Source of the DNA: Setophaga petechia
Lineage: Eukaryota > Chordata > Aves > Passeriformes > Parulidae
NCBI GenBank assembly: GCA_024362935.1
Contig: JANCRA010000004.1
Span: 21,905,121 to 21,969,120 of the forward strand
DNA: 64,000 bases
Direction of reading: 5' to 3'
This document shows positions 372 to 61,105 of the stretch, piece after piece (the stretch's first letter is position 1; every line of letters starts with the position of its first letter). The notes beneath the pieces were generated by a model. The model was not told the DNA's origin and ran no database searches. It was given only the letters and a program-made list of their open reading frames with translations. Position numbers and translations under genes: made by a program.

Positions 372-525
372 TTCTGATGTGGTGTGGGAGACAAAACCCA
401 AGAAGAAGTCAAGATGGAGACCAATGAGTGTTAAGCAAATTGATAAATTAGAACAAGAATTCAGAGATTACAGTGAGCTAAGCCCTTCAGAAAATAAGAT
501 TATTGAGTTGGAATCAAATGTTTTG
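372..525 (+). CDS. VPS13A: VPS13A coding exon w1
   Basis: Acceptor AG at 370-371 and donor GT at 526-527. The first base completes a codon begun upstream, and the exon then gives 51 full codons (for example [19 protein letters not shown]). It is a charged linker between the VAB/SHR-BD region and the APT1-like region. Confidence 0.93.
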
Positions 526-30687: not shown

Positions 30688-30850
30688 AATAGAACAAACT
30701 CGCTCAGGTTCAGTGGACTTGACAACAGCAAAGACAAAATGAGTATTTTCTGTCTGAGGCCCAAGCAGAAAAGATTATCTTCTTGCCTGGATACTGATCC
30801 TGATACAGCTCCAAAATGAAGTCTCTGACAGCTTTGACTTCTTGTTTAAA
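30688..30850 (-). pseudogene. GNA14: GNA14 exon 7 relic (C-terminal exon)
   Basis: Read on the - strand from 30850, the frame gives KQEVKAVRDFILELYQDQ, aligning to GNA14 KQDVRAARDFILKLYQDQ. It continues as PGKKIIFS, after which the frame breaks. In a shifted frame NTHFVFAVVKST follows, matching NIRFVFAAVKDT just before the C-terminus. About nine bases of the terminal receptor-contact helix are missing, and the remaining NL-x-EF codons run on without the normal stop. At least two indels are therefore needed, and the acceptor AG is not preserved. Confidence 0.85.
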
Positions 30851-31149
30851 TCATAGTTCAAAGCACAATTTTTGGTTTTGAACAGTTAAAAGCTATGGGT
30901 TAAGGAAGAAAAATGTGGACAGCATCAAAACAGGCTAATATTGTATTTAAATATCAAATTACCATAAAGACAAAGTCCCCTGTTAGGTTTTTTTCATTCA
31001 TCTGTTAGTGGAATAAAAGCTGTTTGCAACATTACTTTCTGAAATGTGTGGAGTATGCTTTTTTCAAAGGTAAACATTACAGGTCAACCATTTTTTTTCC
31101 AAAAGTCCACTGAAATTATGCAGCATATATTAATAGTTCACCACACTGT

Positions 31150-31245
31150 CGTAGTTTGTCAATAACCATGAAAGAAATTAATTTTTTTAAAACACACAGA
31201 GTAAATAGGATTCTCTTTTGCTAAGAAGGGAACATGTGTTTCCTC
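31150..31245 (-). pseudogene. GNA14: Possible GNA14 exon 6 trace
   Basis: The - strand reads VPFLAKENP and, a few residues later, YS. This sits where GNA14 has VILFLNKKDLL and YSHLISYF (the NKKD guanine-specificity motif). NKKD would be degraded to AKEN. The match is short and rests mainly on correct order between exons 5 and 7. A CR1 starts about 40 bases away and may have cut the 5' half. Confidence 0.3.
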
Positions 31246-31284
31246 TATTGCTAATAAATTAATACAACATTTCTAATTTCTGAT

Positions 31285-31470
31285 CATAGGATTCAGCATA
31301 GAATCCAAGGAATCATTTCGGTTAGAAAAGACCTCCAAGATCATCAAATCCAACCATCAAATCCATTGTCAACCAGAACATGCCACATCCAGTTGTTTTT
31401 GAGTACACCTCCAGAGATGCTGACTTCACCCACCACATCCGTGGCAGCCTGTTCCTGAAGCTCTCCTGGT
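31285..31470 (-). mobile_element. CR1 LINE fragment (3' end)
   Basis: The + strand carries TTAGAAAAGACCTCCAAGAT and TTTTTGAGTACACCTCCAGA, the reverse complement of a CR1 3' end. It lies between the possible exon 6 and exon 5 traces of the GNA14 relic. Confidence 0.85.
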
Positions 31471-31629
31471 GTAGGTTGAAGCTTTATACATGTCTTGTAG
31501 AATATAAGCCTGTACTATGTAATAGGATACCTCATCTTTTTGGTGATGTAAAGCATCAGTAACATTTGTTAAGGAAAGTTATTCAGGCTGTTTTTATAAC
31601 TTGGACTTTTTCTCTCAAATCCATTGAAC

Positions 31630-31760
31630 AAAATTTTTCTTTTAATTATTTCTATTATGTGGTAGGAAGAACAGAAGCATCTACTGTTGTGACCCTTTGC
31701 TTTTTTAGTTCCCTGTCCTCCTTCTCTCAGTGTCTCCAGCTTGCTTCCATAACTTTATCT
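31630..31760 (-). pseudogene. GNA14: Possible GNA14 exon 5 trace
   Basis: On the - strand an ATGG start is followed 57 bases later by GGGTCACA. Gq-family exon 5 has ATG (of MVDVGGQ) 60 bases before the GTCACA of ESVTS. Between them, purine-rich bases resemble the RSERRKW codons. In-frame stops are present. The DxxGQ switch II motif is not recognisable. Support is weak, mainly spacing and order. Confidence 0.35.
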
Positions 31761-32171
31761 AACTGGATGTTGTAAACATACTTTAGGGGGGCCCTCTCTT
31801 CCAAACAGCTACAGTCAGGAGACAAACTGTTAGCTCTAAATGGAATTAAACTACACTGCAATAGGAGCACTCCAGTTACTGCAAACACCTTTTCTCTGCA
31901 CCTCCCCCATCCAAAACTTAATTAAATAGTAGTTCAGCATGCACAGTAATCAGGCTGCTTGAATTGGAAAGCTTTTTTCATGTAACATAAATCTTCTAAA
32001 ACCATGTGTTGAAACACCATTCACGTTACTGTGTTAACTTTGGAAAATAAAAGGAATGGAAACACATATATCCAACACTCATTGAATGCAAAAGCTTAAA
32101 GGATCATAGAAGGAAAGTTGCAGCAGTTACTTTCACAATTGTATCCTGAATCATTTGGCAGGTCATCTTAC

Positions 32172-32301
32172 CTAAATGCAATATTTTCAAATAAAAAGGA
32201 CACTCAGTAATTCCTGTAGTTGGCACCAGTATTCTAAGAATATCTTGACAAGTTGGCACAAATGAGGACATAACAATACTACCAAGGTCACCCAACAAAA
32301 A
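32172..32301 (-). pseudogene. GNA14: GNA14 exon 4 relic (switch I exon) with intact splice donor
   Basis: The 130-base - strand segment encodes SSFVPTCQDILRILVPTTGI then TECPFYL. This aligns with GNA14 [20 protein letters not shown] then IEYPFDL. The length equals that of Gq-family exon 4, and the donor (TTTAG followed by GTAAGA at 32171-32166) is perfect. The acceptor AG is gone: TG precedes the first codon. The arginine finger (R183 in GNAQ numbering) is leucine, while the Mg-binding threonine survives. The segment sits in a 113-codon open frame (32104-32445), which is chance extension into introns. Confidence 0.87.
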
Positions 32302-33774
32302 CAAGATGAAGGTATTATCATAAATGAACCACACAGACTCAAACACAGAGTAGTAATCAGCAATCATGAAAGTGTTCCCACAGAAGCAGCTAAATAGAAT
32401 CCGTTTGTACATGGCCTTAGCCCAGTTGTTGCTGACATAAAACAATAAAACCCTTTAACTTTTGTTTGAATAATCTTTGCTATTACCCCAAAATAAACAT
32501 AAGGATTAAGATCTGAAGACAAATATAAATATCAGTCTAGTTATAGTGTTTACCAACACCAGTCTCTTAATCTGTGGTATTTATATAGCACAGTAAAATG
32601 AAAGTTTGTAAACAAGAATGCTTCAGACTTAAACATGAGACTTAATGAAGAGGCATTTCATTTCTCGTCTGACTGTGCAGTTATTCTTAACCTTACTCTT
32701 CCTAGCTCCACAAGTCTTATAGTTTTAATGGTTGGGTTTAAATTTTAGGAGGACATTTTCTGTGCCTTGGTATAATGTGTCTGTGTGTCAGCAGGGCAGG
32801 ATTGCTCTCTGCAATCTACCTTCCCACCACTAGACGTCAACGTTAGATCATCCAAAACCCTAAGAAGGGTAGAAGTCCTAGGAGGGTTAGAACAAAAGAT
32901 AGGAGGTGTATTCTAAATCCTACACCATGGTTGTAGCACAAACCTTCCTTTATTTAAGCACTAGTTTCTCTCTCTCTTTTCCTTTCATGGAAAAACAAGG
33001 ACTTCTATGCATTCTTCCCTTGCTGCTCCAGCATCCCTCACATTTGGACTTCAGAATAAAAAACACTTACAAGGTAACCACTTGCTCAGAGGATGAATTT
33101 TTTTATTCTCTCAAGAGTAAGAAAACTCATCCTTTTCAGTGAGGTAGCAAACTATTGTTGAGATTTCATCTATAAGTAACAGCAAAAGGAAAATTTAATA
33201 AAATTGAAAATAAAACTAATTACTGATTGTGACTGATTTCTTAGAAAATGAGGCTATAGTACACTGTTAAATGACATCCTTTTTCTTCAGTGTAAGATTA
33301 TTTAAGGAAAACGCAGACAAACATGTGACAAGAATGGTAATGCTTGACACACAGGAGCAGATTGCCTATGTGTAACTGCTCTGAGTTAAATTTTACCATA
33401 AATGCATAATCTAAATATTCCTTGCTGAAATTTAACTCTATTACTTCTCAGCCTTGGCAGAAATAGAAATGTAATTCTTCTGTTATCAGAATAAAGCTCT
33501 CCCTGCTCCATCTTCTCCCCTCACCAATTAAATTATTTGAAAACTGGGGGAGAAACTTATCTTCATTCTTATTTATATGCAAAACATTTCATATAACTGA
33601 ACTCTCTGATCTGCCTGCTTGTTGCTAGTATATTTTGTAGAGCTGTTTTTCATTATTTTCCCCAAGGGAAATTCAGTTATGTACAAGCTGTGTTGACCTC
33701 AGAATTGGAGGAAGAATGTTTAGAATGCCTAAAATTAGTTAGTTTCATCTTTCCAGCTTAAAACTTGTTGTATA

Positions 33775-34445
33775 CCACTGAGAGGTACCTCAGCATAGAG
33801 ACAGGTATAACTAATAAAATCAGAGCATGTGCCCAGGTGGCCAAGGCCAAAGGCATTCCGGCTTGAAGCATGGATGACAGGGCCAGGAAAGGGACTGACA
33901 GCTGTGCTCGACATTGTGAAGGCCACACCTTGAATCCCGTGCTCAGTTTTGGGCCCCTCACTCACTACAGGAAGGACAGTGAGCATGTCCAGAGAAGGGG
34001 AACAGAGCAGGTAAAGGGTCTGGAGCACAAATCCTGTGAGGGGTGAAGGGTCTGAGCACAAATCCAGCTTTCTACCAGGCTGTCTAGCCTGGAAGAAAGG
34101 AGGCTCAGGGGATATCTTCCCTATTGCAGTCTACATCCCTTTGAATGAGGCTGTAGTGAGGTGTGGGTTGGCCTCTTCTTCCAAGTAAAAAGTGACAGGA
34201 CGAGACAAAATTGCCTTAATTTGCACCAAGGGAGATAAAAATTGGATTTAAGGAAAAAATTATTAACCGAAAGTGTTTTCAGAGCACAGGCTGCCCAAAG
34301 GAGTTGTTGAGTCACCATCCCTGCAGATGTTTGAATGTTGTGCAGAAGTGGCACCTTGAGACATGGTTTAGTGGTGGACTTGGTAGTGTTAGGTTAAAGG
34401 TTGGATGTGATGATCTTAAGGGTATTTTCAAAATGAAACAATTCT
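33775..34445 (+). mobile_element. CR1 LINE copy, 5'-truncated
   Basis: It follows the CR1 3' region (GTGCCCAGGTGGCCAAGGCC, GAGTCACCATCCCTGCAGAT, GGATGTGATGATCTTAAGGG) down to an ATTCTATTATT tail. It contains a short internal duplication around CTGAGCACAAATCC (34025-34065). Confidence 0.9.
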
Positions 34446-34554
34446 ATTATTAACTTCTCTAAGTCTTATTTGTTGCTGTAATTAGGCATGGTCATTACTG
34501 CTTACATGAATCTAAGAGATGCTATTCCCTCTGTCTCTTGTAGAATTCCTGAAT

Positions 34555-34795
34555 TCACAGAATCATTAAAAATGTTTGGGAATTTATAGATGTGTTAGTT
34601 TCAACACCCCTACCATGGGCAGGAACATCTTCCAACCGACCCAGCTGCTCAGACATCCTCCAGCCTGTCCTTGAAGGCCAGGCACAGGAGTTGCACAAAC
34701 TACTCAGCAATTTCTTTCTTTTATCAAGTCTAAATCTACTTTCTTTAAAGCTGTTTAAAGAAAGTTTAAAGCTGCTTCCTCCATCCTAGTCCAAA
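34555..34795 (-). mobile_element. CR1 LINE fragment
   Basis: The + strand carries TCACAGAATCATTAAAAATG, then CCCCTACCATGGGCAGGAAC, the reverse complement of a CR1 3' end. It is old and diverged. Confidence 0.75.
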
Positions 34796-35149
34796 TTCCT
34801 GAATCTCTCCAGAATTCCTTGATTGCCACAACTTGTCTTTCCAACAATGTCACTTTATTCTTTCATCATCTAGTCAATTAAATTATTACACAACCGTAAG
34901 AAAGGATTGCTATTGGCACGCAATGCAGCACGTTTCCCCCTTTCTTATTATATTCTCCCATCAATGAGCCTAGGCATCACAAAGGAACCTAGGAGAAATC
35001 CAGCAGTTTCAATCCTTGAATGCCTTTAGTTTCAAGCAAATGAGTGCTATTGAATGTGGCAGTGTGTTTTTTGATTGTAATGCATTTCTAGCAGTCGGTT
35101 TTATAATATTTCCTATTTCGTATTGTTACAGCATATTTTATTACTGATG

Positions 35150-35690
35150 GATTGTTCCTTTCCCCCCAGGGTTGTTGGTTTTGCCCTAGCTGTCCATCTC
35201 CCCAAAGATCTGCCCCTCTGTTCCCTGTTCCTCCACCTATTGAATGTCAATCCCTCCCCATGCCTGCCCCTTTCTCTAGAAACTTCCCTATCAATTTTGT
35301 GTCCTTCAAAACCCCATTGGTTTGTTTAAGTTATTCTCCTCCCCTGCAGTCTCCTATTGGTTTAAACATTGTATTCCCCACCTTGTGTTCCACCCCCAAT
35401 TTCTCCCAATTGGTCAAAGGTTGTATCCTCCCCTGGACCTCCTCCCTCTTACAAGTTGAGTTTGCCTTTGTTGTCCCGGAACCTTTGGGGGTAAACTCTT
35501 TTGGAAACCGTACAGAGGGCCTCTCCCTGATCCTTATCCCTACCCTTGGCACAGTTCTGCAGCCCACCTGAGCCGTAGAGCTGCCGTTCCCTGCAGCTGC
35601 ACCCTGGATCGGGCAGCTTTCTGCGGGCAGCCCACCTGTGCTCTTGGTGTCGGGAGCTGGTCGGGGAGAAGAAATCCGGCACCGCAGCAG
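35150..35690. mobile_element. Probable ERV solo LTR (family uncertain)
   Basis: A C/T-rich block very different from its AT-rich flanks. ATTGGT (inverted CCAAT box) occurs three times (35316, 35356, 35409), then GC-rich sequence ending near GGCACCGCAGCA. This looks like a U3-R-U5 order of an avian LTR, and the start near GGGTTGTTGGTTTTG resembles songbird LTRs I remember. No target duplication or internal viral sequence was identified, so orientation and borders are approximate. Confidence 0.55.
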
Positions 35691-35704
35691 TTGAATGTTT
35701 GAAC

Positions 35705-36295
35705 CTCTCAAATTTCAACAATGACAAATGTGAGGGCCTGCACCTGGCTTGGGGCAGTCTCCTACGTCGATATAGACGCGGGGACAAAACACAGAGAGGG
35801 CAGCCCTGAGGAGAGGACTACTGGGGATACTGGAAGATGACTAAGTATGAGCCAGGAGCGTGTGCTTGCAGCCCAGAAAAAGCTACATCCGACTGACCAG
35901 TGTGGCCAACAGGTTGAGAGAGATCTCTTGAGATCCTGTCCTGGTATACTCCATACAGCTCTGGAATCCCGAGTGCAAGAAAGACCTACTGGAGTGAATC
36001 CAGTGAACAGACTTTTTCCAGGGGTCTGTAGAGGAAGGACAAGGACCAATGACTTTATGCTGAAAGTGTGTAGATTTAGCTTGGACATAAGGGAGAAATG
36101 TTTTATGTTGAGGGTGGTGAGAAACAGGAACAGGTTGCCCAGAGAATCCGTGGATACCCTGTCGCTGGAAGTGTTTAAGGTCATGCTGGATGAGGCTCTG
36201 TTCAACCTGGTCTAGTAAAAAGTGCCGCCATAGTAGGATGTTGAACTAGAGGATCTTTAAAGGTGCCTTCCAAACCAAACCATTCTGTGATTGGA
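35705..36295 (+). mobile_element. CR1 LINE copy, 5'-truncated
   Basis: It opens with CTCAAATTTCAACAATGACA, GGGCCTGCACCTGGCTTGGG, and ends with GTGCCTTCCAAACCAAACCA plus the ATTCTGTGATTG tail. It directly abuts the LTR-like block at its 5' side. Confidence 0.9.
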
Positions 36296-36821
36296 ACCAT
36301 TGTTCTCTGTAACTGTTGAACTGGTAAATACTGATGTTTGCCAGTACCCCTAGGAGTCAGCAAAAGAATTGTTCTAAAATTAATTCATATTTTAATAAGT
36401 TATTTAGCAGGTGGAATATAAATTGGTTACAGTAAATTCAGCTGGCCTACATTTTTCCCAGTACACTGATAGATATCAAAACCTTTTAACTTAGATCCAA
36501 TGTAAAAATGAAATAAGCTGTCCTGCCTACCTCTTATTGAGGACACAAATGGTAGTGCTGCATGCAGATTTGGTCTGGATCTGGAGCAGTGAATTCCTGG
36601 GTCTGTGGAGGACTGGGCATAACCGTCTTGTTTCTCAAACATTCTGACTGTTGTAACAGGACAGTTGTGCTTAGAAGAGAGTGTCTTGCAGAGCTGGGAT
36701 GGCACTGTGCTGAGCCAACTTATTTTTCTGCCTTGAGACTCCTGCTCAATCCATCCCCTCTGCCAACAACTTACCTCCTAGAGGAGAGTCCCAAAGGGCT
36801 GGCTGTGCGTGTGTGAGCAAA

Positions 36822-37325
36822 ATGGTGTGAAATACCTACTTTATATAAGAGGTGCACACCATACAACCACTCACTCACTTCCCTACTAGGGCGACTGGGG
36901 AGAAAATTGGAAAGGTAAAAAGTAGAAAACAGTTTGAGAGAAAGACAGATTAATAGGAAAAGCAAAAGCCATGCACACAAGAAAAGCAAACCAAGGAATT
37001 AATTCTCTGCTCCTGTGGGCAGACAGGGGTTCAGCCATCCCCAGGAGAGCAGGGTCCCTTGTTACAGTGACCCGGGAAGATAAATGCCATCACTCCAAAC
37101 AACTGCCCCTTCCTCCTTTCCCCCCCAAATTTAGAAAATGACATGGTACTGTATGTTTGGAGCATCCCCTTGGTCAGGTGGGGCCACCTGTCCTGGTGGT
37201 GTCTTCTTCCAGCCTCCCAACTGCCTTGCCAGTGTGGGGGTATGGGAAGCAGAAAAGGCCCTGTCTCTGTGTAAAACCTGCTCAGCAGTAACAAAACCAT
37301 CTCTTACATCAGCACTGATTAGAAA
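36822..37325 (-). mobile_element. ERVL-type LTR fragment, songbird family, 5' end missing
   Basis: On the - strand it matches the same LTR family as at 61.5 kb: TTACACAGAGACAGGGCCTT, GGAGTGATGGCATTTATCTT, CTCCTGGGGATGGCTGAAC, GGCTTTTGCTTTTCCTATTA. It ends near the 3' border around 36822. The first 100 or so bases, with the TGTGCTGG start, are absent. Confidence 0.8.
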
Positions 37326-40097
37326 GGCTAGAGACCCTGTGTCCTGACCGTACACTTTCTCTGTATTTTCAACCTTACCAGTGGAAAGATGTGCAGAGTA
37401 ATTTTGTTTATGAATTACTGTTCCATCAATTTACTGAAGACACAGAACAGACATCTTTTTGTAGAGAAAATAAAGGGCAATGTCATGAAAAGGCACATTC
37501 ACAGCATTTTGACTGTGGGTTTATTCTGGCTTCATTGTAATTGCAGCTGCAAAACTAGCTTTGTTATCAGGGTCTTGTGAGAAGAATTATTTCATAAGCA
37601 TCTGCATCTGCAAACCTCAGTCACCTGATGTGGCCAAGTACCACATAACGTCAGGATTAACTATCAATTTGACAGAGTATAAAAAAAGGAGTTTGACAGA
37701 GACAGCTAGTCTCATGCTATAATTCAAAGAAAAGCAAAGTCTTACAACGAAGCGAAACATTACTTAAACCACAAAGTGATTGTAGTATAAAGCTGTGGGC
37801 ATATCTTCCTCATTCTCAGTAAACAAGCATGTTGCTAATAAAAAATACTTATGGTGTGGATTATGGTGGATAACATGATATGAAAGCAAGGTACAGGAAT
37901 TTTTATGTTCCTTGAAATGCAGTTCTCAGGATAAATTAGTATGCCTAACACTAGGAGACAGCCTACAATAACCCAGCCAGGATCTGATAGAAGAGGGGAT
38001 TAACATGAAACACAGTCTAAAGTGTTCTTAGAAGCAGCGGAAAGTCCTTCAAACTGGACAGCCAGAGAGTCCTGTAGTTTTTTTATACTGGAAAATATCA
38101 GCATTTTAACAAAGAGGCAGGTGTCACAGGGCTTTGTTTGAGTGCTTGTGTTTGTGTTCTTATGTTTGTGATGATTTACTACAAACAAGAAGCATTCATT
38201 GTAAGACCAGTGCAATACCAGCTGATTCGGCCTGACTGAATCAGCCAATGATTGAAAGAAATTATTTTTCTAGAAAATTGTGTTGGCAGGCTAGAAAAGA
38301 TCAGTGAAAAATAGGATTATAATTGGAAATTGATTGTTTGTTTTAGATCTAGTTTTAAATAAAATTTATTATCAGACTTTGATAAAAGTTTCAACTGAGT
38401 TACAGATTTTCTGTATTGCATTCATGGTCAAGACAAATAATTGCAACTGAACTGAAAAATCTCTAAACCATTGGAAAATTAAGTAAACACCCGAGCTGTA
38501 TTCACAGCTCCTGCAGTATATAAGAACCAATTCTGCTAACCAATTCTTTTTTAAACATTGTTGTATCTCTCCCACTGAAGGGTTTTTGAGGATTATTGTG
38601 AATAGGTGGACTTTGAATCAATAGCTCTAGCTATTACTGTGGCTATAGCTCTTTAGGCTAGTCTGATAAAATGCTTAAATGTTCTCCCACACCCTCCCCC
38701 CGCCTTGTTAAATACTCTAAAGGGTTACTGAATGAGATAAGATACCCCACAACGCTTGCAGGCTTTTTGCTATTTTGCTGTAGAATCTTAAAACTAAGAA
38801 ATCTAGAAAAGGGTTATTTAATCTTGTCAGCACTTTGTAATAACATAAATTTACATTTAACAAATATCTTTTGGCATTTCTGACTGTGTATCATGAAAGG
38901 AGTGAAAACATCCTGAAAATTTACATCAAGATTGGATTTTTATAGGAGTTACACCACTAAGAAGTTAGCCCAAGAGACAAAATGGAAATATGCAACTGTA
39001 AACACATGAGCAGTAGCTGCTCTACGGAAAGAACAGAAAGAGTTCAAAGAGTTCAAAAACTTCATAATCATTAGAGAGCAAACTAAGGAACAAAGAAGGA
39101 AAATACAAAACATCACAAGTCCATGATAATGTTGCTTCTTGGCAGAAAATTTTGTTCATGAAATACAAGTCACAAATTAAATCCAGAATTCACTCTTCAT
39201 TGAAATACATAGAATATATCATGTTCTCTGTAAACAGAGTATGAGCAGGAACAGCAAGAGTTACATGTAACTTGCTATAAAATTTTGATACTCGATATGT
39301 CCATGCCAAAGTTGCCTTACTTCAGGCTGATTTTTTACTTTTTTGTAGAGCTCTACTTTTCCATGACATGGTGCATGGTGCAGAAGACAAAATAAGGGTA
39401 AATAGTTTTGAATACACAGAAGTAGGAGAATATACTTGTCCCATTAAAAATAAAAAACACACGAGAAACAAAACTAGACCAAAATCCTCAAAACCTATAG
39501 TCCTGGAAGGAAAACTGATCATGTATAATAAAGACAGTGGCAAAATCATTTAACAAAAAAACCTCAAAACATCTATCTAACTTCAAGTGAATACTAAAAA
39601 TCTATTACTTTCTTTAAAATGTGTTATATTACTGTCCAGTGGGAATCAAATTTAATTCTTTAATAAAAGGGCAATTGGTGAATAAGAGGCGCCACTGCAA
39701 GGTCCCGTTAATCAAAAAGTGATATAAAAAAGAAATAAAATAATCAGGAGAGATCTTGAGTATTTATTTTTCACTTCAATCAGTAATAGCACTAGGTAGA
39801 AGCAGCCTTCCCCTGTTTCATGAAAGTGACAAGAAAGAGGGAGAAATGCCAGGTGAATGAGTATATGGGATACAACCCATAGTAAAAACAAATATTTGTC
39901 AGGCAACAAATGGATAACACCGCAAGTAAAAAATAATTTTTTGAAGATATATGAATAAATTTTTTTCTCCAGCTGTTGCATGTAATGCTATTATTTCAGT
40001 AAACCTTCTCTTTTGGAGGGTTTGGATCTCCATGCTTGGAAACAAATAGTATCTGCTTTGATACTTTGCACCTCTATCCTATTTCCTAGGAAACGAA
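37326..40097. other. Non-coding stretch, probable relic-gene intron
   Basis: AT-rich with no recognised repeat or exon. It lies between relic exons 3 and 4 of GNA14, so it is probably former intron. Confidence 0.5.
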
Positions 40098-40534
40098 ATA
40101 TTAAATAGAACCCCAAGCAGTGCTAAAGGCTGAAGGCAGAGTGGCTGGAAAGCTGTCCAGAAGAAAAGGACCTGGGAGTGCTTGTTGACAGTGGTCGAAT
40201 ATGAGCCACTGTGTGCCCAGCTGGCCAAGAAGTCCAGTGGCATCCTGGCCTGCACCAGCAACAGTGTGGCCAGCAGGACCAGGGAAGGGATCATTGCCCT
40301 GTGCCCGGCACTGACAGTGCCACACCTCAAATCCTGTGCTCAGTTCTGGACCCCTCACTGCAGGACAGCGGGGGTAGAGAGTGTCCAGAGAAGGGCAGCA
40401 GAGCTGGGGAAGTGTCTGACACACAAATCCTGTGAGGAATGGCTGAAGGAGCTGGGGTTGTTTATCCTGGAGAGGCTCAGGAGAGCCCTTAGTCTTTACA
40501 GCTATTGAATGGAGGGTGTAAAAGGGTGGCACAG
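40098..40534 (+). mobile_element. CR1 LINE fragment, truncated at both ends
   Basis: CR1 consensus is clear (GTGCCCAGCTGGCCAAGAAG, GGAGAGGCTCAGGAGAGCCC). It stops at about 40534, where LTR sequence begins, so the LTR probably inserted into it or replaced its 3' end. The 178-codon open frame on the opposite strand is a by-product. Confidence 0.88.
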
Positions 40535-40974
40535 CATCAGCCATATCTCTACATTGTGCCCCATCAGCAGGCTGGGGTGGTCCTGGCAGGGGATGCAACT
40601 TGGCCAGCTGACCCAAACCGACCAAAGGGAACTCCATACCATGTGATGTCTCTCAGATATAAAACTAACGGAAAAAGGAGAAAGGGAGGCATTTGTTATT
40701 TACAATATTTATCTTCTGGAGCAACCTCTACTCATGTTGGAACCCTGCATCCTGAGAAGGGGCTGAACACTGAACATCATTTCCTAATGGCAAATAACGG
40801 AAAATAATTATTTTTTTGTTTTGATTATGTGCATGCAAACTTCGCTTTTGCTTTAATAAGCTGCCTTATCTCAACTTATGAGTTGTTTTTCATCTGATTT
40901 TCCCTCCCCTGTTCAGCTGTGGAACAGTAGAGAGGCTTGGTGGTCACCTGGTATCCTGCCAAGGTCAACCCTCC
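40535..40974 (+). mobile_element. ERVL-type LTR fragment, same family as 61.5 kb
   Basis: Shared landmarks are CCCATCAGCAGGCTGGGGTG, CTGACCCAAACCGACCAAAG, CTTTTGCTTTAATAAGCTGC and CTCAACTTATGAG. The 5' third is missing, and the poly(A) signal region reads TTTAATAAGC. Confidence 0.75.
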
Positions 40975-41289
40975 ACACCTGTCTAGTCAGCATCAGATGT
41001 AATAGTACTGAAAAAGCACAAAAAGGATGTTTCCTATCATTGACCAATGCCAAACACTGGCATTCTTACAAGATATTCTGCTTGAATTAGGTTAGTTTTT
41101 ACTCTGCTGCCACTGTGTTTTTGCAATAGTGGAAATGTGGAGGTATCAAGTGTTATTTTGACTACACATCAGTTAATACTGTTTCAACTGCTAAATAACT
41201 CATATTAAAAAAAAAAGACTCCTTCTTTAGTACAGATTTGCTCACAAGTAAGGAATTTAGCAGATTCTGATAGAAATAAAGATAAAAGA

Positions 41290-42025
41290 TAGAATCATAG
41301 AATATCCTGAGTCAGAAAGGACCCACAAGGATCATCATTGAAGTCCAGCTCCCAGTTCTGCAAAGGACAGCCTGAAGAGTTACACCATGAGCCTGATGAT
41401 GTTGTCCAAACACTTCCTGAGCTCTGTCAGGCTGATGCTGTAACCATTTCTCCAGGGACCTGCTCCAGTGCCCAACCACCGTCTGGGGAATTCCTAATAG
41501 CCAACCTAAACCTCCCCTTCAGGCCATTGTCACAACTTCAGGCCATTCCCTGGTCACCATAGAGGAGAGATCAGTGTCTGCCCCTCCTCTTCCCCTCACA
41601 TGCAAGTTGTAACTACAGTAAGATCTGTCCTCAGTCTCCTCCAGGCTGAACAGACCAAGTGACCTCAGTTGCTCCTCACACAGCTTCCCTCAAGGCCCTT
41701 CACCATCCTTGTTGCCTTCCTGTAAATGCTCTCGAACAGTTTAATGTGTAATATTGTGGCCCCCAAACCAGCCCCCAGCTCTCGAGGTGAGGCTGCCCCA
41801 GCTCAGAGCAGAGCAGGACAATCCCCTCCCTTGCCTGGCTGGCAATGCTGTGCCTGATGCACCCTCAGGACAGGGTTGGCCCTCCTGGCTACCAGGGCAC
41901 TGCTGACCCATGTTCAACTTGCCAGGACCCCCAGGTTTGTTTCTATGGCACTGCTTTCCAGATTCTCCTTCCACAGTCTGTCCATCCAGGGTTGCCCCAT
42001 CCCAGGTGCAGAATCTGACAGATGT
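41290..42025 (-). mobile_element. CR1 LINE copy, different subfamily
   Basis: The + strand begins ATAGAATCATAGAATATCCT, then GGACCCACAAGGATCATCAT, and follows a CR1 subfamily distinct from the copies at 27.2 and 47 kb (landmark GTTGTCCAAACACTTCCTGA). It is about 735 bases and 5'-truncated. Confidence 0.9.
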
Positions 42026-46642: not shown

Positions 46643-46980
46643 TCATAGAATCACAGAATGATAGAAACATAGAACCATGCAATAACCTGCATTGGAAGGG
46701 ACCTTAAATATAACCTGCTTCCAGCTTCCCTGTGATGAGCAAGGACATGTTCCACCAGACCAGGTTGCTCAGAGCCCCATCCAACCTTGCCTTGAACACT
46801 TCTAAGAATGGGGCAATCACAGATTCCTTGGATGACCTGTGCCATGGCATTCCTTACCATGCTCACGGTAAAGAATTTCTGCCTAAAATCTAAATATAAA
46901 ATATAAACCCACCCTTTTCCAGTATGAAGCCATTCCCCCTTGTCCTATCACTCTATGACATTGCCAGAAGTCTTTGTCCA
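46643..46980 (-). mobile_element. CR1 LINE copy, 3' half, split by an LTR
   Basis: The + strand carries GGAAGGGACCTTAAATATAA and CAGAGCCCCATCCAACCTTG, the reverse complement of a CR1 3' end. It is interrupted exactly at 46980/46981 by an LTR and resumes at 47627. Confidence 0.92.
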
Positions 46981-49795: not shown

Positions 49796-50505
49796 AAAAA
49801 GCTAGCTTAGCCAGTCAGCTCTTGATTTTTATCCTTCACCATGAAGAAACTTGGAACTGATACTGTTTAAAGGGCTGGAGCCATGCCTAATGTATGTCTT
49901 CATGAGAACTGAAACTTTTAAGGGATCAAAGAGAATAAGCATGAGTAACTTAATCACACAAAGTGTAGAACAGAAAGTAACAGATGACTTTTCAAGATAA
50001 CCAACAAATATGTAACAATTTCCACACATCAAAAGTGGAACCTTGGCATGGAACAGAACAAGGCAAACTTTCCACCCATTCCTATGCGAATAACCTATCA
50101 CTGGAATATTTTACCAGGAGCTGAAATTAATTTACTATTATAATGGCTCTCATTTTATTTTTAATTGGAGCATAGCTTTTAGAAAAACAGACAAACTGGG
50201 ATGAAAGGAAGTCCTTATGGTCTGTGTTGTACAGGAAATTAGACCAGAAATTTGCAGCAGCATCTCTCTAGTCCTTATGCTAATCTATAATGCATTTTTG
50301 TTCCGGGCAATCTTGGGGCTTATTGACATGGTATAACAAAAGAATTGCTGCCAGCTTTTGAGAGACTTCTAAGAAATGTTATCTCTTGAAATTCAGAGTA
50401 ATGTGTGCTACGTTCCATTTATTTAATTTGATTTGTCGCTAACAGGAACATAGAGCAGAAGCCAGCTGAGCAGGGAAATTGCATGCAGGGAAATATGCAT
50501 ATCCA
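49796..50505. other. Non-coding stretch, nothing recognised
   Basis: AT-rich sequence between a CR1 and the SINE; no feature was recognised. Confidence 0.5.
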
Positions 50506-50634
50506 GCATCAAAGCGTGGTGGTAAGAACGCCAAGGTTACAGGTTCGATGCCTGTACAGGACATTCACTGCAGAGTTTGACTCAATGATCCTGGTGAGCT
50601 CCTTCCAACTCACAATATTTTGAAATTCTGTGAA
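50506..50634 (+). mobile_element. tRNA-derived SINE with CR1-like 3' tail (TguSINE1-like)
   Basis: The left part is tRNA-like: AAAGCGTGGTGGTAAGAACG, CCAAGGTTACA, and a B box GGTTCGATGCC at 50542-50552. The right part (TTTGACTCAATGATCCTGGT, CTCCTTCCAACTCACAATAT, ATTCTGTGA) is a CR1 3' end, the tail needed for mobilisation by CR1. This tRNA(Ile)-head plus CR1-tail structure is that of the passerine TguSINE1 as I remember it. The 5' end with the A box is eroded, so it is not a functional tRNA gene. Confidence 0.85.
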
Positions 50635-51419
50635 AAGGAAAAGGAAATAAACATGAATTTAACAGAGGAAAACTAGGAATAAAATACTAACTCATACAAT
50701 ACTAAGTTTTACTTTGAGTTCCTACTCCACTTTCCAGCTCACTATTTGTCCCTGTTTCATTTGAGCTTCCTACAGCTTTATATTTTGGTTTCTGATCCCT
50801 TATCCCAAATAGGGTTTTTTGCACCAGAATGCTGTAACATACCCTTTGGTCAAAGGGGTTATAATTGAAAAATTCCTTAGTTCCTCTACTGTGACTTCGG
50901 GGGAAAAAAGAAAATAAAGAATGTTGTCATTCTAGTCTTTCTACTAATAATCAATTTTATTTTTCTACAGGTAAAGCAGAAAGAAGCTCTTAACTTTCAG
51001 TTTTCTTTTTGTTACACCACAGCATCTGTAGCCCTTAATTACCTAGGTTCTGCTCATCAGACAAAAATTGCCCCTTTAAGTAAAAGGAAAAGAATTGAAA
51101 GAAAACAAGGTAAAAGCCTGGTGTTTTGGTAAATCTCTGTCGAGTCTCTTTCAGACTAACAAACTGAATGCTAGATATTCCTAGCTTTGCTGTGCTCTTA
51201 ACTAACACAGGCCTCATGATCTCATGGCTCACAGCTATGAAGAAGGTCAGGACTCCAGCTACCAAAAAGACCTCTCAGATATCTGCTCAAAACCTCACTA
51301 AAGCTGTAGATCTCCTATGGGCCTTCTTTTCCCACTGTCTACCTCCCAGACTACATCTTCCCACACTGCCCCAGGGACTGTGCCCTCTCTGTGGTCTGTC
51401 TATCATCATTCCTGTAGGG
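50635..51419. other. Non-coding stretch, nothing recognised
   Basis: No gene or repeat was recognised between the SINE and the small CR1 tail fragment. Confidence 0.5.
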
Positions 51420-51475
51420 ATCACAGAGCTACAGAATGGTTGAGGTTGGAAGAGATCTGTGGAGGTCACCCAGAT
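51420..51475 (-). mobile_element. CR1 3'-end fragment
   Basis: The + strand carries ACAGAATGGTTGAGGTTGGA and GATCTGTGGAGGTCAC, the reverse complement of the last 50 or so bases of a CR1. Confidence 0.8.
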
Positions 51476-51535
51476 TAAGGAAGCTGAATTCTATTCTCTT
51501 TTATTCCATTAGCCGTCAACTGCTTATCCCATAAA

Positions 51536-51705
51536 TGTGTGTGGGGGGGTTGTTTTTTGTCTTTTTGTGGTTTTGTCTTTTTTAGTTTTTTGTCTTTTTA
51601 TTATTGTTGATTTTTGGTGGTTTTTTTGGTTTGGGTTGGGTTTTTTTTGTTGTTGTTGTTGTTTTGGTTTGGGTTTTTCTCTTCTCTTAATTTTTTTTTT
51701 TCCAG
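51536..51705. repeat. T/G-rich low-complexity tract
   Basis: About 170 bases of almost pure T and G, including a GTTGTTGTTGTTGTT stretch. Its complement resembles the A/C-rich tract at 53.5 kb in composition. The frames across it (Q- and K-rich) are not genes. Confidence 0.8.
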
Positions 51706-52534
51706 AGTACAGCTTGAACTCATGGTAGTGCGAATGTTTTGAGCACATAAGCGAAGTGCTGAGGTATCTCAGACACTGGTGGGCCAGTACGAGTGTTTAT
51801 GTGGAATTCTGGCAGGGTAGCTGCCCTCTAGCACATGTGGCAGAAGGCTTGGAAGATGGTCAGGGTGTTTCCACTGCCACAATGTGAATGGATAAGTAGT
51901 GTGAGTGTGAAGTTTGTATCTGTTCTCTTCCACTAATAATGCCATAATGGTTAATATTACTTGAGCTCCTCTCCCAAGAAAGTCTTGATGCACACAGTTC
52001 TTTCTTTCGACACTTAGGCTTAGATTTCTGCTTTAAAAGAGTGCTTGTCAACATCCAAGAAATTTCACACAAGGTATCTTAGGCAACGTATTCAGAAACT
52101 TGCAAATTACAAAAATTCTCTAAGACATTAAAAATTTCAGATTTGCTTAATTTTTTTTTCTCAGCCACTAAGCAATAGAAGAATAAAAGAAGAAAAATCA
52201 GCAGCACAAAGTCATAAAAAACAGAGCAGGAGAGAAACATACCAGCCATAAAACATACAATTACTCTGTTTTTTACTGCAATGCTTATCATTAGTTCTCA
52301 AGTTCAGAAATGTCTGTGTAAATTAATACTGACTTCCTTCAGAATAATATATTTGCCACTCAGATATACTTATGTTCCAAGACAGACAATAAACTTGAGA
52401 GAGGAATTCAGAGGGACTGACCTGTTTATTTAAGAAACAAAATAACCAAGTGGAAAAAAAAAAAAAAAACAGCGAAATTAGTTTAATTCCAAAATAAAAA
52501 TGAATTTTCTTCCAAATTTACAGCTTTTCACATC
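51706..52534. other. Non-coding stretch, nothing recognised
   Basis: It includes an A run near 52455-52471. No gene or repeat family was identified. Confidence 0.5.
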
Positions 52535-52675
52535 CTCTTTGAAGGCCAGGTTGGATGGGGCCCTGGGCACCTGCTACAGTGGGTGGCAGGGAGGCCACTC
52601 CATGGCACAGACGGTGGAACTAGATGCCAGACTTTAAGGCAGCTTCCAACCCAAGCTATTGTGTGATTCTATGGT
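52535..52675 (+). mobile_element. CR1 3'-end fragment
   Basis: GAAGGCCAGGTTGGATGGGG, GGCAGCTTCCAACCCAAGCT and the ATTCTATGGTTTTATGATG tail are a CR1 3' end in + orientation. Confidence 0.85.
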
Positions 52676-53535
52676 TTTATGATGTGATCTTTTTCCTCTT
52701 TGATGTGAATTGCCTATCTTTGGTTTATTCTGTTTCTTCAATTAAATTTCTTGCACATGCTAGTCTAGGGGCAAATTAGACCACTTTTCCCATCCGTTTT
52801 TAAATAGCATTATATAAATACTTGAAAACTGTGAGATATACTCTTTAATGTCACGATATACTAATTTAATGTTGTGTGTATAACTTACTATTTACTTCCA
52901 AGAAATACAGTTTTTCATGGTACAGCAAGAATTGAAAAAATTAATTCAGTATTTCTTCACTGTATCTTACATGCAGATAGAATGTATTCTATCTGGAAAT
53001 AGGGTAAATTATCAGTAAAGGTGTTAAGAATCAAGAGACAGAAGGGAAAATACTTTGTTTAAAGGATACAAAATTTTGTTGAAGCTTCTTTTTCCTGTGA
53101 TGGGCTGCTGCTCTCAGCTCTGCAGGTTTTTTCCCTACAGGTCTACCACACATTCTCCTCAAAGCCAATATTCACCAGTGAGTGCTAACAATACAATTTG
53201 ATGAAGCACAGTGAATAAGGTTTGCACATCAAATTCTATCTTTCCTTAACTTGCTCTATTCTTGATGGTCTATAGATGACTTGATAAACACTGCTGTAAA
53301 TGTCAAAGCCATTGAAATCCATATTTTTTTGCAAGTAAACAGGGCCTTTGTAGGCTCTACTAGACAGCTACTGACCACAACACCTACTCAGAGCCCTTGC
53401 AAATAGCACCATGATCACTGCTAGTGTAGAGGGACTTCCTTTCTGTGTTGGCAGCGTGGCCTCTAGGCAGCAAGCAGGCATGTCTTCATGCCTCTGAATT
53501 AATCTCCCAGTCAAACAAGATGTGGAAATGGCTTG

Positions 53536-53690
53536 CAAAAAAATCCCCAAAGAAACAAACAAACAACAACAACCAAACAAAAACAAACAAAAATCCACAC
53601 AAAGATACCCCATCACAAACAAAACCCAAAGCAAACAAAACAAACAAAAAACTCCAAATGAAACTAAAAAACCCCCACAAAATGCAAAGA
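53536..53690. repeat. A/C-rich low-complexity tract
   Basis: About 150 bases of AAC/AAAC-type repeats on the + strand (AAACAAACAAACAACAACAA). It is non-coding, although open frames cross it. Confidence 0.8.
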
Positions 53691-56600
53691 GAAATCCAGC
53701 ATGAGAGTTTCATTTTTTTGCCCTGCAAAATGCTCTGCATCCTTCCAAGAAAGATGCTCAGATTTGCTGACCAACATCAATATAATGGCCTTTAGAGTCT
53801 CTTCACATGTTGCAAGAATATCTAAACCAAATTCATGAAAAGAATGGTGTACATCATGTTTCAATACACATACAGGAGTGGAAAATAGGAGTGTTAAAAT
53901 GGAACCATGGCATTTGATAGGAAATAGATTAACACTAAAAACACTTTCTAAATTTTTTTTCCGAACACTGTCTGAATTTGCCAGATTTTTTTTTTCTTCA
54001 TTGTGGAAAATTCACTTCAAACAGTAATTTTGTTGGCAGATCATAAATCCATAAAATGTGTCACAGGCTCTAGCACTAAGGAAAGAGCAGGCCTAGAGGA
54101 GCTTTCCAGCTGGTTCTCTTTCTGAAGTGGCCTTTTCATTTTTAACATGACACCAGATGCTGATATAAATGATTTTGGCTGAGTTGCTACTAATTGGTCT
54201 TTTCATATGCAATTAATTTCTTTGTTTCTTATTCACTAAGGGATTTAATTGCTGCAAAATAGAAATTTGCCAATTTTCCTTTAGAGAAATGCACATTAAA
54301 CTTTCCATTAAAATAAAATCCTCAGATCTTCCATTGCAAGGAGTTGTTCAGGTATTACTGTAAATGTCTGTAAAATAGTATGTTTCTCTTCTAAGAATAA
54401 AGATTTTTCAGCTGTACATATTCACTCATTTCTACCTTAAAGATGATGTATGCAAGCAAGACTGTGCAAGAAAACCTAATGACCTGGAAAAACTTATCAG
54501 TGATAGCAGTCACATGGTTTTCACACAGAGAGCATGTGTTTCATACAGCCAATTGTATGCAGGTATCAAAACTCTCTAGCTGCAACACACATTTACAAGT
54601 ACCTTCCTCTCAGGACTGATTCAACCTCTGACTCCTCATGCCAAATCTAAAACCACAGACTTTTGTCTTTTGTTGTTTTAAACTTTATTTTCTTAGAGCC
54701 TTTGATGAATAATTTTTAAATTATATTTTGAAATTTTTTCTTGCCTTCTGATTAGGTTTTTTTTCTTATTCTGCTGACAAAGGTCTCTGAGAGATGTACT
54801 CTGGTTAATTTTGTTGTGACTACTACAGATGTGAATTTGCCAGATTGAACCCAGACAACAGAACCAGGGGCATATGCTTCCATCCAGATTCTGGTGCAGA
54901 AGCATCAAGTTCTGGTAGAGAAGTTGGGTGAAAAAATATATTCAGCCACAGCTGTCTCTGTACAGTGACTTTATTTTAGTCTCTATAGCAAAGTTTTGAC
55001 ACTTTAAATCTCCTCAAGCCACAGCTCAGAGAATGATTGGACTTTGTTCCATCTTCTGCACCCTTAGGGGATTTGTTTTTCAAGCTTCCCTTTGCCAATA
55101 AATCATTCTTTTGCAGCAACAAAGGCAGCAACGCAATTATTCACTTACTACAAAGGAAGGAACACGGGGAAGAGAAAGGATATTTGGTCTGCAGTACATT
55201 GAAGTCTGTTCTGAAAAGCCAGAAAATATTCACCACTTGTACATATCCTTCTAATGTGAACCGTTACATGCAATCCTCCACTTCCAAGTACAGCACTAAT
55301 TCTGGAATCCTCACTTACAAGCTCTACATCATTAATGATTTTTCCCATCACTACTGTCCTCCCTTTTCAGTATCAGATCACATGTCTATATGTACTATTT
55401 ATGCCACTAATAACATGGCAAAGTAAGAGGAGAACAATTTGCAATAAATCCACTGCTGGCTGAAGGGCTTCCTCCCAGTCATTCCTAATGCACTAAACCC
55501 AAGCCTTGGGTTACTGTGTGCTGTGTGCTTGTGTAACTTTGTGTGTTATGTTAATGCTACATAGAAATAGCAACGATAAAGTCAGAACATTTCAGATGAA
55601 AGGCCATATAAAGTGAAAAATATATATCTATATCCAGGAGATATAAATATGACATTTTGTGGAGAAAGGCTAACAAGGTATCAGCTCTGGTGAGTACCTC
55701 AGAGCTGAATTTGGTACATTTATGGGTGTACCTCTCCTCAAATGTTTCTATTTATGAATACATAGGTGATATTGAGCAGGAAAAAACCCACAATTTTCAC
55801 CCATTGCCTCAGTATTCACCAGTATTTACTTTTCTTAAGAACAGTCCAGCCTAAAGAATGAGTGCCCTTCATAGTATTTTTTGAGAAAAAAATGCTCCTT
55901 CCAAATAAGGAATTATGAACCTACCTCAAAGATATGGGCATGTAAGAAATTAAAAATCACCACTATCACAAAGGCAACTTAGTTTAGAGGCTCAAGTAAG
56001 CCAGTTCAGTTCAACCTTTCTTCAAAATCCTATATATATATATAAATATATTTAGACCAGTCCTTCTACCATCTTTTATTTTTCTGTGAGAAACCATAGA
56101 AGTGTACACTTTTTAAGACCTACTTTTTCCTCCTTTCTGCTCTTCCCCTTGTGATATTGTTCCAGTTACAGTTTTTTATGTTATTTTTTTCCCAGAAGCA
56201 TCTAAAAGTCAGTTATAATTAGTTGAAATAACTCGAAGGGTTAACTCTGTTTCTAGTAAGCTGAACTGTCTCCCCTAGTGCCAAAGAACCAAAGCAAAAT
56301 GAAAATGTATGTAACATAATATTTTACTTAAAGAGCAGTATAAAGCCCAAAGAACCAAAAAAAACCCCACAAAATAAAGCAAAACAGGCCTATCCCTCAA
56401 ACAAAATAACATGAAGATGACACAAAACTTGGAATTAATTCGTAAGTGAGGAAGAAAACTCTGTAACATTTTTGGTAGCTCTGATATTTTATAACGTAGA
56501 GAAAAACCTACAGGTTTCTAACCAACAGTCACCTGTTTTGAAGAACAAATTAATTCAGCAATTCTGCTAGAAAACAAGTAAGTGGGTAGTTGGAACTTAT

Positions 56601-59535
56601 ATGCTAAGAAAACAAGAAAACCCCTGTTACTATTGCTTTTGCATCTGGATATGTCTAGAAACTGTTTAAGAAGGAGGACTACCAGAAGCCCATTACTCTG
56701 AATTTACCAAAGAAGAAGTAAAAAAGCAACTCTAAACCCAGCCTGTCATATTTATTTAAATTCAGTGGAGTAATGCAAAGAGTGACGCAACAACCCCTCC
56801 AGTATTGGCAGCAATAAGATGAAATAGATCCCAGTACTCAGTCTTGTCAACAACATGGCATAGTAGGGAAACTTGAAGTCATTGAAGTAAAAGGAAGTGG
56901 TCCATGTATTTACAAAACTGTACAGACTCTTACAGGTCTCTTAATAATAATTAGTAACTAGTATTATGTCTTATAAACACACAATTTTACTATGACATGC
57001 CAGAAAAGAACTTCATCATTTGAAGCAGTGGCATTACTGGAAACAGTGCCATTAAGAGTCTGGTAATTTTTAAATACAATAGGACATTCTGATGAATAAG
57101 ACCATTAAAAAGCACAAAACAAAAAAACCCGAACTAAAACAAATTCAACATAAAATCAGCAAAAAAAGACTCCCAACACATCCTTAACAAGTCCCACATA
57201 TTCTAATACCAACAAACATGTCCCAGCTGGGCACGTCCGTATTGCTTGTGTGGCAGGGAAGGTTGCCATTTAAGAAGTGGACAATTTCCTTCCTGACTTC
57301 CATGTAGAGTCCTATTAACTCACTTGCATGGCATTTTATACTTGGTCATGTAAAGCAGCAAAAAAATTTAAGCCCCCAAAGTGGATACTGAATCACTTTG
57401 CTCTGAAAGGAGGCCAATGTTCTCTCTCAAAATAAAAGCTTATAAAACAAAAAAGAACAACTATGCCCTTCCTGGAAGGAAGCAGAAGATCTGATGTTGT
57501 GTGCCCAAGTCTCTAAGGATATGGTGCTACGTGCTACATTGTGTGACTGAATGAACACAGCTCCTTCTCCTGGTGCTTTGAAAAGAGCCTCTCCTCTGCT
57601 GACTCATTGCTTTTATTGCAATTGGGTTGCTTTGAGAAGCTTTCTCCTTTCTCTTATTTATAACCATCCAGCAGCACTAAATTCTCTGAAGCAAAGAACT
57701 TCAGGTTTCTACCTTCAACCTCTTTGAGGAGATCAGCTAAAATCACAAAAGATCCAAAGACAGATACAATTAGTCTGTTCACATAAGTCTCATTTCCTTG
57801 GAAAATCAAGTTGAGACCTCTGTTTAGGAGTGCCTAGACCCATACTTTGTGCATTGGCCAATAACTAAATGTTTATTATGAAGCAGGGTATAATATATTT
57901 TGGAATGCTTTGAATTAGAGTCTCTATAAAACAAACTTCTACAATACATCTAGACTGTCCATAAATTTCATCCCTTTATCAGCTGAATTAGTGCCAGCCC
58001 AATGAAAATCAGTTTAAAAAGGATTGTGTCTTTTAGCTAAGTTTAATTGCAAGGAAAAATCCTTTTAAAAGCACAAAATAAAATTATTACCATCAGATTA
58101 CTTTTAAAACAAAGCATCTGCTATAAGAAATGGTTTCTCTCCTAAGGTTTAAAATAATGAAGGGAAAAAATGACTGTGTTATATAATTTTCCAAATCTTC
58201 AAATGCCTACATGCAAGGAAATCCACCAATGCCTCTTTGCTATGTTTTCCATTTGTCCACACTACATGGGTTCCCTGTGTACTTCCCAAACTTGATCTTG
58301 CTATACTTGTCTTTTTTGCATTCCCCTTTTCTGACATAACCTGTTTACCTATCCCATAACATTGATTTGGCATTATAGTGCTTTCTTAAAAAAAAAATAG
58401 TTCTGCTGACACAGTCATGCTGGGGCAACTTTGCAAGAATAAAGGACACTAGATTATCATTTACTGAAAGTCAGAAACATTTTGGAGAAATGCATTTTTC
58501 ACAGTATTCTGTTTTACTCCCTAGGAAAAAACCAATTGTTCAGACTGCCAAAAAGAATTGTTAATTGCAGACATATGCCCTGTCATTTCACATGTGCATG
58601 TATAAACCAAACCAACCCACAACAACAGGACTGAATTCCTTTTCTATGATCCCCATCCCAGACAACTATATAAAAACCTCTTCATAGCTGGCTAAATGTA
58701 CACATTTAGAAGTTTAGTTCTCTTTTCTTCAATGCAAGTAAATTGAAATTTCTAATGTCATCCAAAGTGGAGAGGGGAAAGAGTGATTTTCCTGCAATAT
58801 AGGCTATATTTTAATTTGGAAGATGAGGGAGAAGTTTTGTTGAACTAGTATTTTAAAATCTCTGTTGCATCCCTAGTATCTTTATATGAGTAGCAAGAGC
58901 AAAAACTAATGTAATTCAACAAGCTATGACTGGCTGGCAGAAACAAACACCCAAGAATATATCTGAAAATTATCCTTTTAAGACGGATAGATACAAGCAG
59001 AATGGTATATTTCACTTCCTCCATCTCAACTTATTTTTTTGTCTACAATGTTTGAAATTTAATTTCCTACAATTTGACTTTGATAAAAAAAATTTGGTAC
59101 AGTGAGAAAGGGCTTTCACTATTTCAGTTGTCAATGACTTGCTGTCAAATGATTTTTCATTTCTCTGTGCCTCACCTGTACAGTTCATCTTTCATTTACA
59201 TATACTAGTAGTCACAGTTACTCAAGCACTGTTTCTCAAAGAAGCCATTAACTTTCAACTTGCTTTTTAGAAATCTGTATTCTCACAAGAGGTGTTTGTA
59301 AAAGTAGTTAATACAAGCTGTCACACAAAAGCACTATCCTCAGATTCTAAATTATGTTGTACTGTAAAGGACTATTCAACCAACACTCAATTTACCAATT
59401 CCTACTCTGTGGTACTGAAAAAAATGTGATCTATAGAATATTAATAACAATTCCTCCACCCCACCCCCTCAATGAGTTCACGTCTAGCAGGAAATTTTAC
59501 AGTGGTTATAACAAGAAAACAAACAAACAATCAAC

Positions 59536-59558
59536 GCTTCTCTCCAACAAGCGTAAAA
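59536..59558 (+). repeat. 23-base dispersed direct repeat, copy 1
   Basis: Identical to 60645-60667. It begins GCTTCTCTCCAACAAG and runs to an AAAA. The flanks differ. Confidence 0.9.
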
Positions 59559-60644
59559 AATGCAAACGAACAAAAAAAAAAGGAGGAAAAAGCCCTAACC
59601 AAACAGCCCTTCCAGAACTGTACAGTTTAGAGGGTAGTATAATCATGTCTTATATTATTTATGAACTGTAGGATTCCTAAACATCTGCAGGATCTTCATC
59701 TAAAATGTACACAAAACATGCTATGACACCTTTTAATTTCAAGTTGAGGTCTAGAAAAAATATCCCAAAGAATACACAATCTGAAATAAAGTAAAAATTG
59801 CTTTCTCAGTTAAAGGTCAAGCATGACTATAGTACATAACTACTTCATCCAAGAAAAAACCCTTACCCTCTCATTTCAGCATCTATTGTGGAAAATAAAT
59901 AACTACAGCTGAAAACAGCAATAAGAAACCTCATTCAATACCATCTGTAAATTGCTTTTATTTCTGAAGGTTAACAAGTCCTTTTGATATTCTACCCATA
60001 CAGGAGTTACAGATTTTCAGATACGTTACACTCACAAAGAGACACAGCATAGAACAATCTGTTCTCTGCTACAAAAGCTCTAAAGACAGATATTCAGCAA
60101 CCAGAGAATTCATGGGCCCTGACTTGGTCAAAGCACAAACCTGAATAAAAGAAAAATAAAAATGCAAACAGATAAACAAAATTGATAAAGTGCCATAGGA
60201 AAACAAATATTTCAGAGAAAACAAGTCATGCCATGGAAAAGGCAGGCATGGTGTAAAGTGGGGGACCATGCATGGTGATTTCTTCCTTGTCACTGGATTC
60301 ACCTTTGCAATACATTATGACAGCAGAATCACAATTGCCGTGTTCATTACTGTTGTTGACAATTGTTTTTCATTACAGGCCTAAGTTCCATTAATGTACG
60401 ACAATTACAAGACTAACAGTACTTTGCATTATATTCAGTACCTAATGAAAGATCAAAATGCAGTAGTCTTCTGCAAAGTGGCTGGAGTGATGCCTGGTTA
60501 TTTTCATGTTGTCTCTCAGGGGTTTCTCTGTGTGTAAGCAAAAGGGATTTTGCTTTCTCCATGTCACTGAAGCTGGCCTTGCCAAACTCTTCTTATCACT
60601 TAGTGCTTTGTTACCTCTGATAAAGAGCCAGAACACTACATTTT

Positions 60645-60667
60645 GCTTCTCTCCAACAAGCGTAAAA
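60645..60667 (+). repeat. 23-base dispersed direct repeat, copy 2
   Basis: The second perfect copy, 1109 bases downstream of the first. No recognised transposon lies at either place. Confidence 0.9.
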
Positions 60668-60929
60668 TAGCATTATAATCTTCAGAATCTGAAGATACTG
60701 CCAGCACAGCTATCATCAAGAACTAAATTTTGGCAGAATAATGTGTTATGGAAATGCATCCAGCTCAGTTCTCAGTGCTCAGAATAAAAAAACCTTTGTT
60801 AGTTTATTAAGTCTTTGTATATTTTTTTAATGGGAAGGAAGGAACCCAAATCCAAACATGAAATTCAGTAAGAGAGAGTGCAAAATAGACTCCTTTAAAT
60901 AGATTCTGATGGTCATAGGTTTTCATCAA

Positions 60930-61105
60930 AATAAACACATATGAATCAAGATAAAGTATATTCTCAATCATATTAGCTGCTTCTGTAACTGTTGCCTTCT
61001 TGAGGACCCAAAGGTGTTTTACAAATGATTTACTAACCCTCAAAATAGTTTCTCATGTGTGAAAGAGTAACCCTAGTTTCTCCAGTCTATGAAGTCCAAA
61101 ATTCG
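60930..61105 (-). pseudogene. GNA14: GNA14 exon 2 relic (P-loop exon)
   Basis: On the - strand GACTGGAGAAACTAGG matches the codons of G-T-G-E-S-G with TGE intact. CACATGAGAAACTATT follows, matching KQMRII codons, then AGTAAATCATTTGTAAAA matching RKGFTK. The end reads ATGATTGAGAAT and TTCATATGTGT, matching AMIRAM and QYVC codons. The total length of about 176 bases approaches the 185 of Gq-family exon 2. The GKST part of the P-loop is destroyed and several indels and stops are needed. Similarity is at DNA level and moderate. Confidence 0.55.

Follow-up and report, generated by a model that had tools for sequence, protein, structure and literature searches.

An apparently ancient, unprocessed GNA14 pseudogene beside VPS13A in a probably neoavian bird

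The window, a stretch of 64,000 nucleotides, contains coding exons of VPS13A on the plus strand and, beyond them on the minus strand, the remnants of exons 3, 4 and 7 of GNA14, which lie in order and retain their introns, while their reading frames are broken. The features are given below; the borders of the GNA14 exons were placed where similarity ends and according to the general structure of Galpha genes.

372..9649, plus strand: VPS13A in 14 coding exons, each bordered by AG/GT; joined, they give 513 codons without a stop
20614..20737, plus strand: later exon of VPS13A (PDB VPS13A, E 2e-20; PF25037 below cut-off)
22181..22255 and 24046..24096, plus strand: later exons, the second ending in the stop codon, found by reading frame and splice sites, which we take to belong to VPS13A
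30684..30850, minus strand: exon 7 remnant of GNA14, residues 293-354 and the terminal stop codon
30860..32160, minus strand: 1.3-kb interval expected to hold exons 5 and 6, neither of which is detectable
32172..32301, minus strand: exon 4 remnant, residues 154-197
34501..34551, minus strand: second part of the exon 3 remnant, covering residues 137-153; codon 146 is an in-frame TAG
34552..34793, minus strand: insert of 242 nt that splits exon 3
34794..34859, minus strand: first part of the exon 3 remnant, covering residues 114-136 of bird GNA14; codon 122 is lacking

The 513-codon frame of VPS13A aligned over residues 1-513 to the VPS13A of PDB 9yg5 (E 2e-272). A splice model without exons 2070-2151 and 3429-3498 ran into stops, as did one to which only 3429-3498 had been added, and the frame opened once both were included. 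When eight frames of the VPS13A region were compared with Pfam, three gave matches, all below the cut-off and one of them to VPS13_C. By comparison with the 9yg5 chain, the 11-kb gap between 9649 and 20614 should hold about 30 residues. VPS13A reaches its stop at 24096 on the plus strand and the stop of GNA14 exon 7 lies at 30684 on the minus strand, a tail-to-tail layout that is also the mammalian arrangement; other birds, too, have GNA14 beside VPS13A, and the block continues with GNAQ. Indeed, the initial annotation had placed the relic beside VPS13A, where mammals keep GNA14, and the positions of the VPS13A end (24096, plus strand) and of the relic (30684-34859, minus strand) bear this out.

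Which parts of the gene can still be recognised? With nine bird and turtle GNA14 proteins as tblastn queries against the 64-kb window, every reference (9/9) found exon 4 (32301-32185, for one reference from 32289; E 5e-9 to 4e-8), exon 7 (30847-30712; E 8e-8 to 2e-7) and the first part of exon 3 (34859-34794; E 0.002 to 0.04), and all nine also aligned to the second part of exon 3, which by itself is a weak match (34554-34501; E 1.0). A frameshift-tolerant profile built from 28 bird proteins scored 68, 130 and 132 for exons 3, 4 and 7, vs maxima of 47, 48 and 53 among 60 dinucleotide shuffles of 24200-64000, none of which (0/60 for each exon) reached these scores. The frame of exon 4 matched the G-alpha family PF00503 with an E of 6e-6, under the curated cut-off, and in the PDB it matched Galpha-q (E 8e-7), with Galpha-i chains also among the matches. 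Several Gq-class alpha exons in order on the minus strand, with introns, had been proposed, and for exons 3, 4 and 7 this holds by tblastn and profile, the two methods also agreeing that exons 4 and 7 align to G-alpha. The extent of 30 kb (30688-61105) originally assigned to the relic shrinks to a block of 4.2 kb (30684-34859), exons 1, 2, 5 and 6 being undetected.

The DVGGQ segment, which includes the catalytic glutamine, and NKKD, the motif for guanine specificity, should presumably lie in exons 5 and 6. The profile found neither of these exons in the 1.3-kb gap, where their best scores were reached by 42/200 and 130/200 shuffles, nor in 24200-64000, where the corresponding counts were 21/40 and 19/40. 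The best match to exon 2 in 34860-64000 (54932-54891) scored below the shuffle mean, 42 of 60 shuffles reaching its score, and was discarded, its order relative to the exon 1 candidate being wrong as well. The best match to exon 1 (54792-54708) was counted as chance because two of 60 shuffles reach its score and because it falls on the wrong side of the exon 2-like match. By eye, the minus strand of 60701-61500 contained no Galpha-like frame. Rfam gave no match in the window, and six of seven open frames elsewhere in the window had no match in Pfam at E 0.1, the seventh matching PF13006 (E 0.017, below cut-off).

The assignment of the relic to GNA14 and not to GNAQ or GNA11 is firm on residue comparison. 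Of its 135 aligned residues, 89 are identical to flamingo GNA14, as against 68 for GNAQ and 70 for GNA11. In a diagnostic comparison that covered GNA14, GNAQ and GNA11 and left out GNA15, 24 columns separate GNA14 from the other two, and at these the relic is GNA14-like in 18, GNAQ/GNA11-like in one and like neither in five. Exons 4 and 7 had first been read as GNA14 over GNAQ from the motifs SFVPT and RDFIL-x-LYQDQ; both motifs are present and the diagnostic columns agree with this reading. The relic thus matches amniote GNA14 in exon order, in diagnostic residues and, going by the mammalian arrangement, in its neighbour VPS13A, but differs from it in that exons 5 and 6 are undetectable and the remainder is disabled.

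The broken reading frame reported at the outset was confirmed in all three exons, in the form of an insert, a stop codon and frameshifts. Exon 3 lacks codon 122, is interrupted after codon 136 by the insert and carries the TAG at codon 146; its donor is displaced, no GT following the exon directly and the nearest one (GTAATG) lying 2 nt on. Exon 4 has lost its acceptor AG and 1 nt at codon 192 and retains the donor GTAAGA. In exon 7, the acceptor AG is missing and deletions of 3, 6, 2 and 11 nt have accumulated.

The 3' half of the exon 3 insert includes about 100 nt of a repeat family that has two more copies in the window, at 46796-46698 (E 4e-8) and 27310-27218 (E 3e-5) under permissive scoring; under default scoring, only the copy at 46796-46698 matches the insert (E 8e-5). 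We take the tail of the insert to resemble that of a CR1 element, and presumably a further CR1-like tail lies at about 31500-31280, inside the exon 5-6 interval. With this label, CR1-like retroposon tails would occur at 34552-34793, 46698-46796, 27218-27310 and 31280-31500, and the one within exon 3 would mark the age of the loss. The insert is flanked by an 11-nt direct repeat, which we rejected as a target-site duplication because the Pro-Gly-Ile and Ile-Gln-Glu codons expected there would give a near-repeat in the intact exon already; only 3-4 nt could be claimed.

How long has the gene been decaying? Other bird GNA14 proteins (27 compared) retain 127-135 of the same 135 residues, and the identity of 89/135 therefore indicates that constraint has been lost. 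At non-degenerate sites, where the amino acid dictates the ancestral base, 46 of 243 positions differ (K2P 0.22 with a standard error of about 0.03), which makes the decay old and apparently neutral. At 1.9e-9 to 3.3e-9 substitutions per site and year, this corresponds to 67-117 million years, or 47-152 with sampling error, an estimate that is rough and somewhat too high with the flamingo protein substituting for the ancestor. Neoaves date back about 67 million years, and the fastest rate used, 3.3e-9, is the passerine rate. The point estimate fits the age of Neoaves only at this fastest rate, and 2.7e-9 also fits within sampling error.

The residues preserved in the relic also bear on its lineage. 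At residue 159 it has Leu, which among the GNA14 proteins compared (those of 354 or 355 residues) is found in 23, all neoavian; Val occurs in a single neoavian protein (P0079), and Ile in all others. Leu159 suggests a neoavian origin, this being one site at which GNAQ also has Leu. Identity to the relic amounts to 86-90/135 for 24 Neoaves vs 84-88/135 for 23 others, a small margin. The matches listed (120 of 7,983, 1,601 and 1,308) name many bird orders, including seriema, cuckoo-roller and owls, and among these listed matches there is no name from Passeriformes, Psittaciformes or Falconiformes. The protein lists name cluster representatives only, and some of their rows are nameless. We read the absence of Passeriformes as suggestive, because the names are those of cluster representatives and cluster P0170 alone has 159 members; a strict reading as absence of the taxon is ruled out by the nameless rows, the representative-only names and the listing of 120 of 7,983, 1,601 and 1,308 matches. 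The sequence points as far as Neoaves; that the bird is a songbird, as first proposed, is plausible and perhaps likely.

Is the relic the bird's own GNA14 or a copy of it? There is good support for an unprocessed GNA14 pseudogene of great age that occupies the ancestral locus in a neoavian bird, and we are rather confident that it is the ancestral gene itself, which lost its function long ago and has been decaying where it stood. The main competitor is a partial tandem duplicate, in which exons 3-7 were copied beside VPS13A and decayed there, with an intact GNA14 between the window and GNAQ. Indeed, the window ends (64000) before GNAQ, exons 1 and 2 were undetected within it, and exon 7 has a further, weak match on the minus strand at 40068-39947 (score 57, several frame jumps needed). 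The score of this match was reached by one of 300 shuffles of 34900-64000, the best of ten shuffles in an earlier set having scored 53; we regard it as borderline, either chance or the trace of a partial duplication, because many exons and strands were tried. On account of this match, we slightly lowered our confidence in the ancestral gene and raised that in the duplicate. However, it is the relic itself that sits where the ancestral gene would be, and in the same orientation, relative to VPS13A, as judged from the mammalian arrangement, and no Passeriformes name appears among the protein matches listed (120 of 7,983, 1,601 and 1,308) while other orders are named, a point of little weight. 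We consider a partial duplicate unlikely.

Two further explanations are very improbable. In birds, the block with VPS13A and GNAQ lies on the Z chromosome and its W counterparts decay, and the relic could accordingly belong to a degenerate W-chromosome copy of this region, the gene on Z being intact; but the 14 VPS13A exons are open with canonical borders and 513 of 513 residues align, and since W decay would hardly spare VPS13A, we give this explanation very little credit. With equally slim prospects, the remnants might still be in use, perhaps as a noncoding RNA exon or a short peptide: exon 4 has kept its donor GTAAGA and the stop-to-stop frame around it spans 116 codons, yet its acceptor is lost, the constraint on the protein is gone and no Rfam family was found in the window. 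Hardly worth entertaining is an origin from GNAQ, GNA11 or some other Galpha gene, or by processing: although exon 4 is alike across Galpha proteins (Galpha-q and Galpha-i chains match it) and GNAQ is the next gene, GNAQ or GNA11 accounts for just one of the 24 diagnostic columns that set GNA14 apart from these two, and processing is ruled out because 2.2 kb separate exon 3 from exon 4 and 1.3 kb exon 4 from exon 7.

If the relic is the ancestral GNA14, it would probably be the sole copy in the genome, a unitary pseudogene as first proposed, and the lineage would probably have lost one calcium-signalling switch. The locus would yield no working G protein even with exons 1 and 2 surviving outside the window. 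Our search of the open-access literature, subscription journals being largely outside it, found no report of a GNA14 loss in birds among the papers listed. An earlier study states that the four Gq-class genes, GNA14 included, were present in all Vertebrata, and reports the loss of GNA15 in Neoaves, of which six species were sampled (PMC5896119). That loss resembles the relic in that a Gq-class alpha gene disappeared in birds, but concerns another paralogue and another locus (PMC5896119). With GNA15 reported lost in Neoaves, the bird would rely on GNAQ and GNA11 for coupling to phospholipase C-beta. Another gene, cornulin (CRNN), was described as lost in songbirds, where it was scored together with its neighbour genes (PMC7759463); like the relic it would be a lineage-specific loss in perching birds, if the relic belongs there, but CRNN is a gene of another kind, the relic being that of a signalling G protein (PMC7759463).

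What would the loss mean for the bird? If the loss goes back to one founding event that related birds share, the exon 3 insertion and the loss of exons 5 and 6 would be the obvious candidates. Perching birds make up more than half of bird species. We speculate, with somewhat less than even confidence, that GNA14 was lost once near their base, through the exon 3 insertion or the loss of exons 5 and 6 and on top of the older loss of GNA15, which would leave only GNAQ and GNA11, that other landbirds such as owls would be losing GNA14 independently, and that receptors preferring G14, such as OPN5m, would signal differently. OPN5m, a UV sensor, prefers G14 in cell assays, and the genes of OPN5m and G14 are co-expressed in a subset of scleral chondrocytes in chicken and medaka (PMC10432815). 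Birds without GNA14, if the loss is true, would reveal whether the OPN5m-G14 pathway is dispensable, and Gq-class signalling in chicken should not be carried over to the lineage of the relic. If the loss is moreover common to a large clade, it would constitute a natural GNA14 knockout and contradict the published statement that all Vertebrata have GNA14 (PMC5896119).

Some of the other bird GNA14 proteins look unusual in their own right. The two owl models, P0171 (Otus sunia) and P0177 (Strix occidentalis), have 88% identity to flamingo, vs 97-98% for eagle, seriema and cuckoo-roller. Neither has a normal exon 1, the damage in exon 6 differs between them, and they have gaps in common, of one residue before EDRKGF and of two before LSYFPEY. 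Both models look decayed, and an independent loss of GNA14 may be under way in owls. The gannet protein P0166 (Morus bassanus), labelled LOW QUALITY PROTEIN, lacks a residue in LYQDQ and has a C-terminal extension and unusual substitutions; it is possibly another decaying copy.
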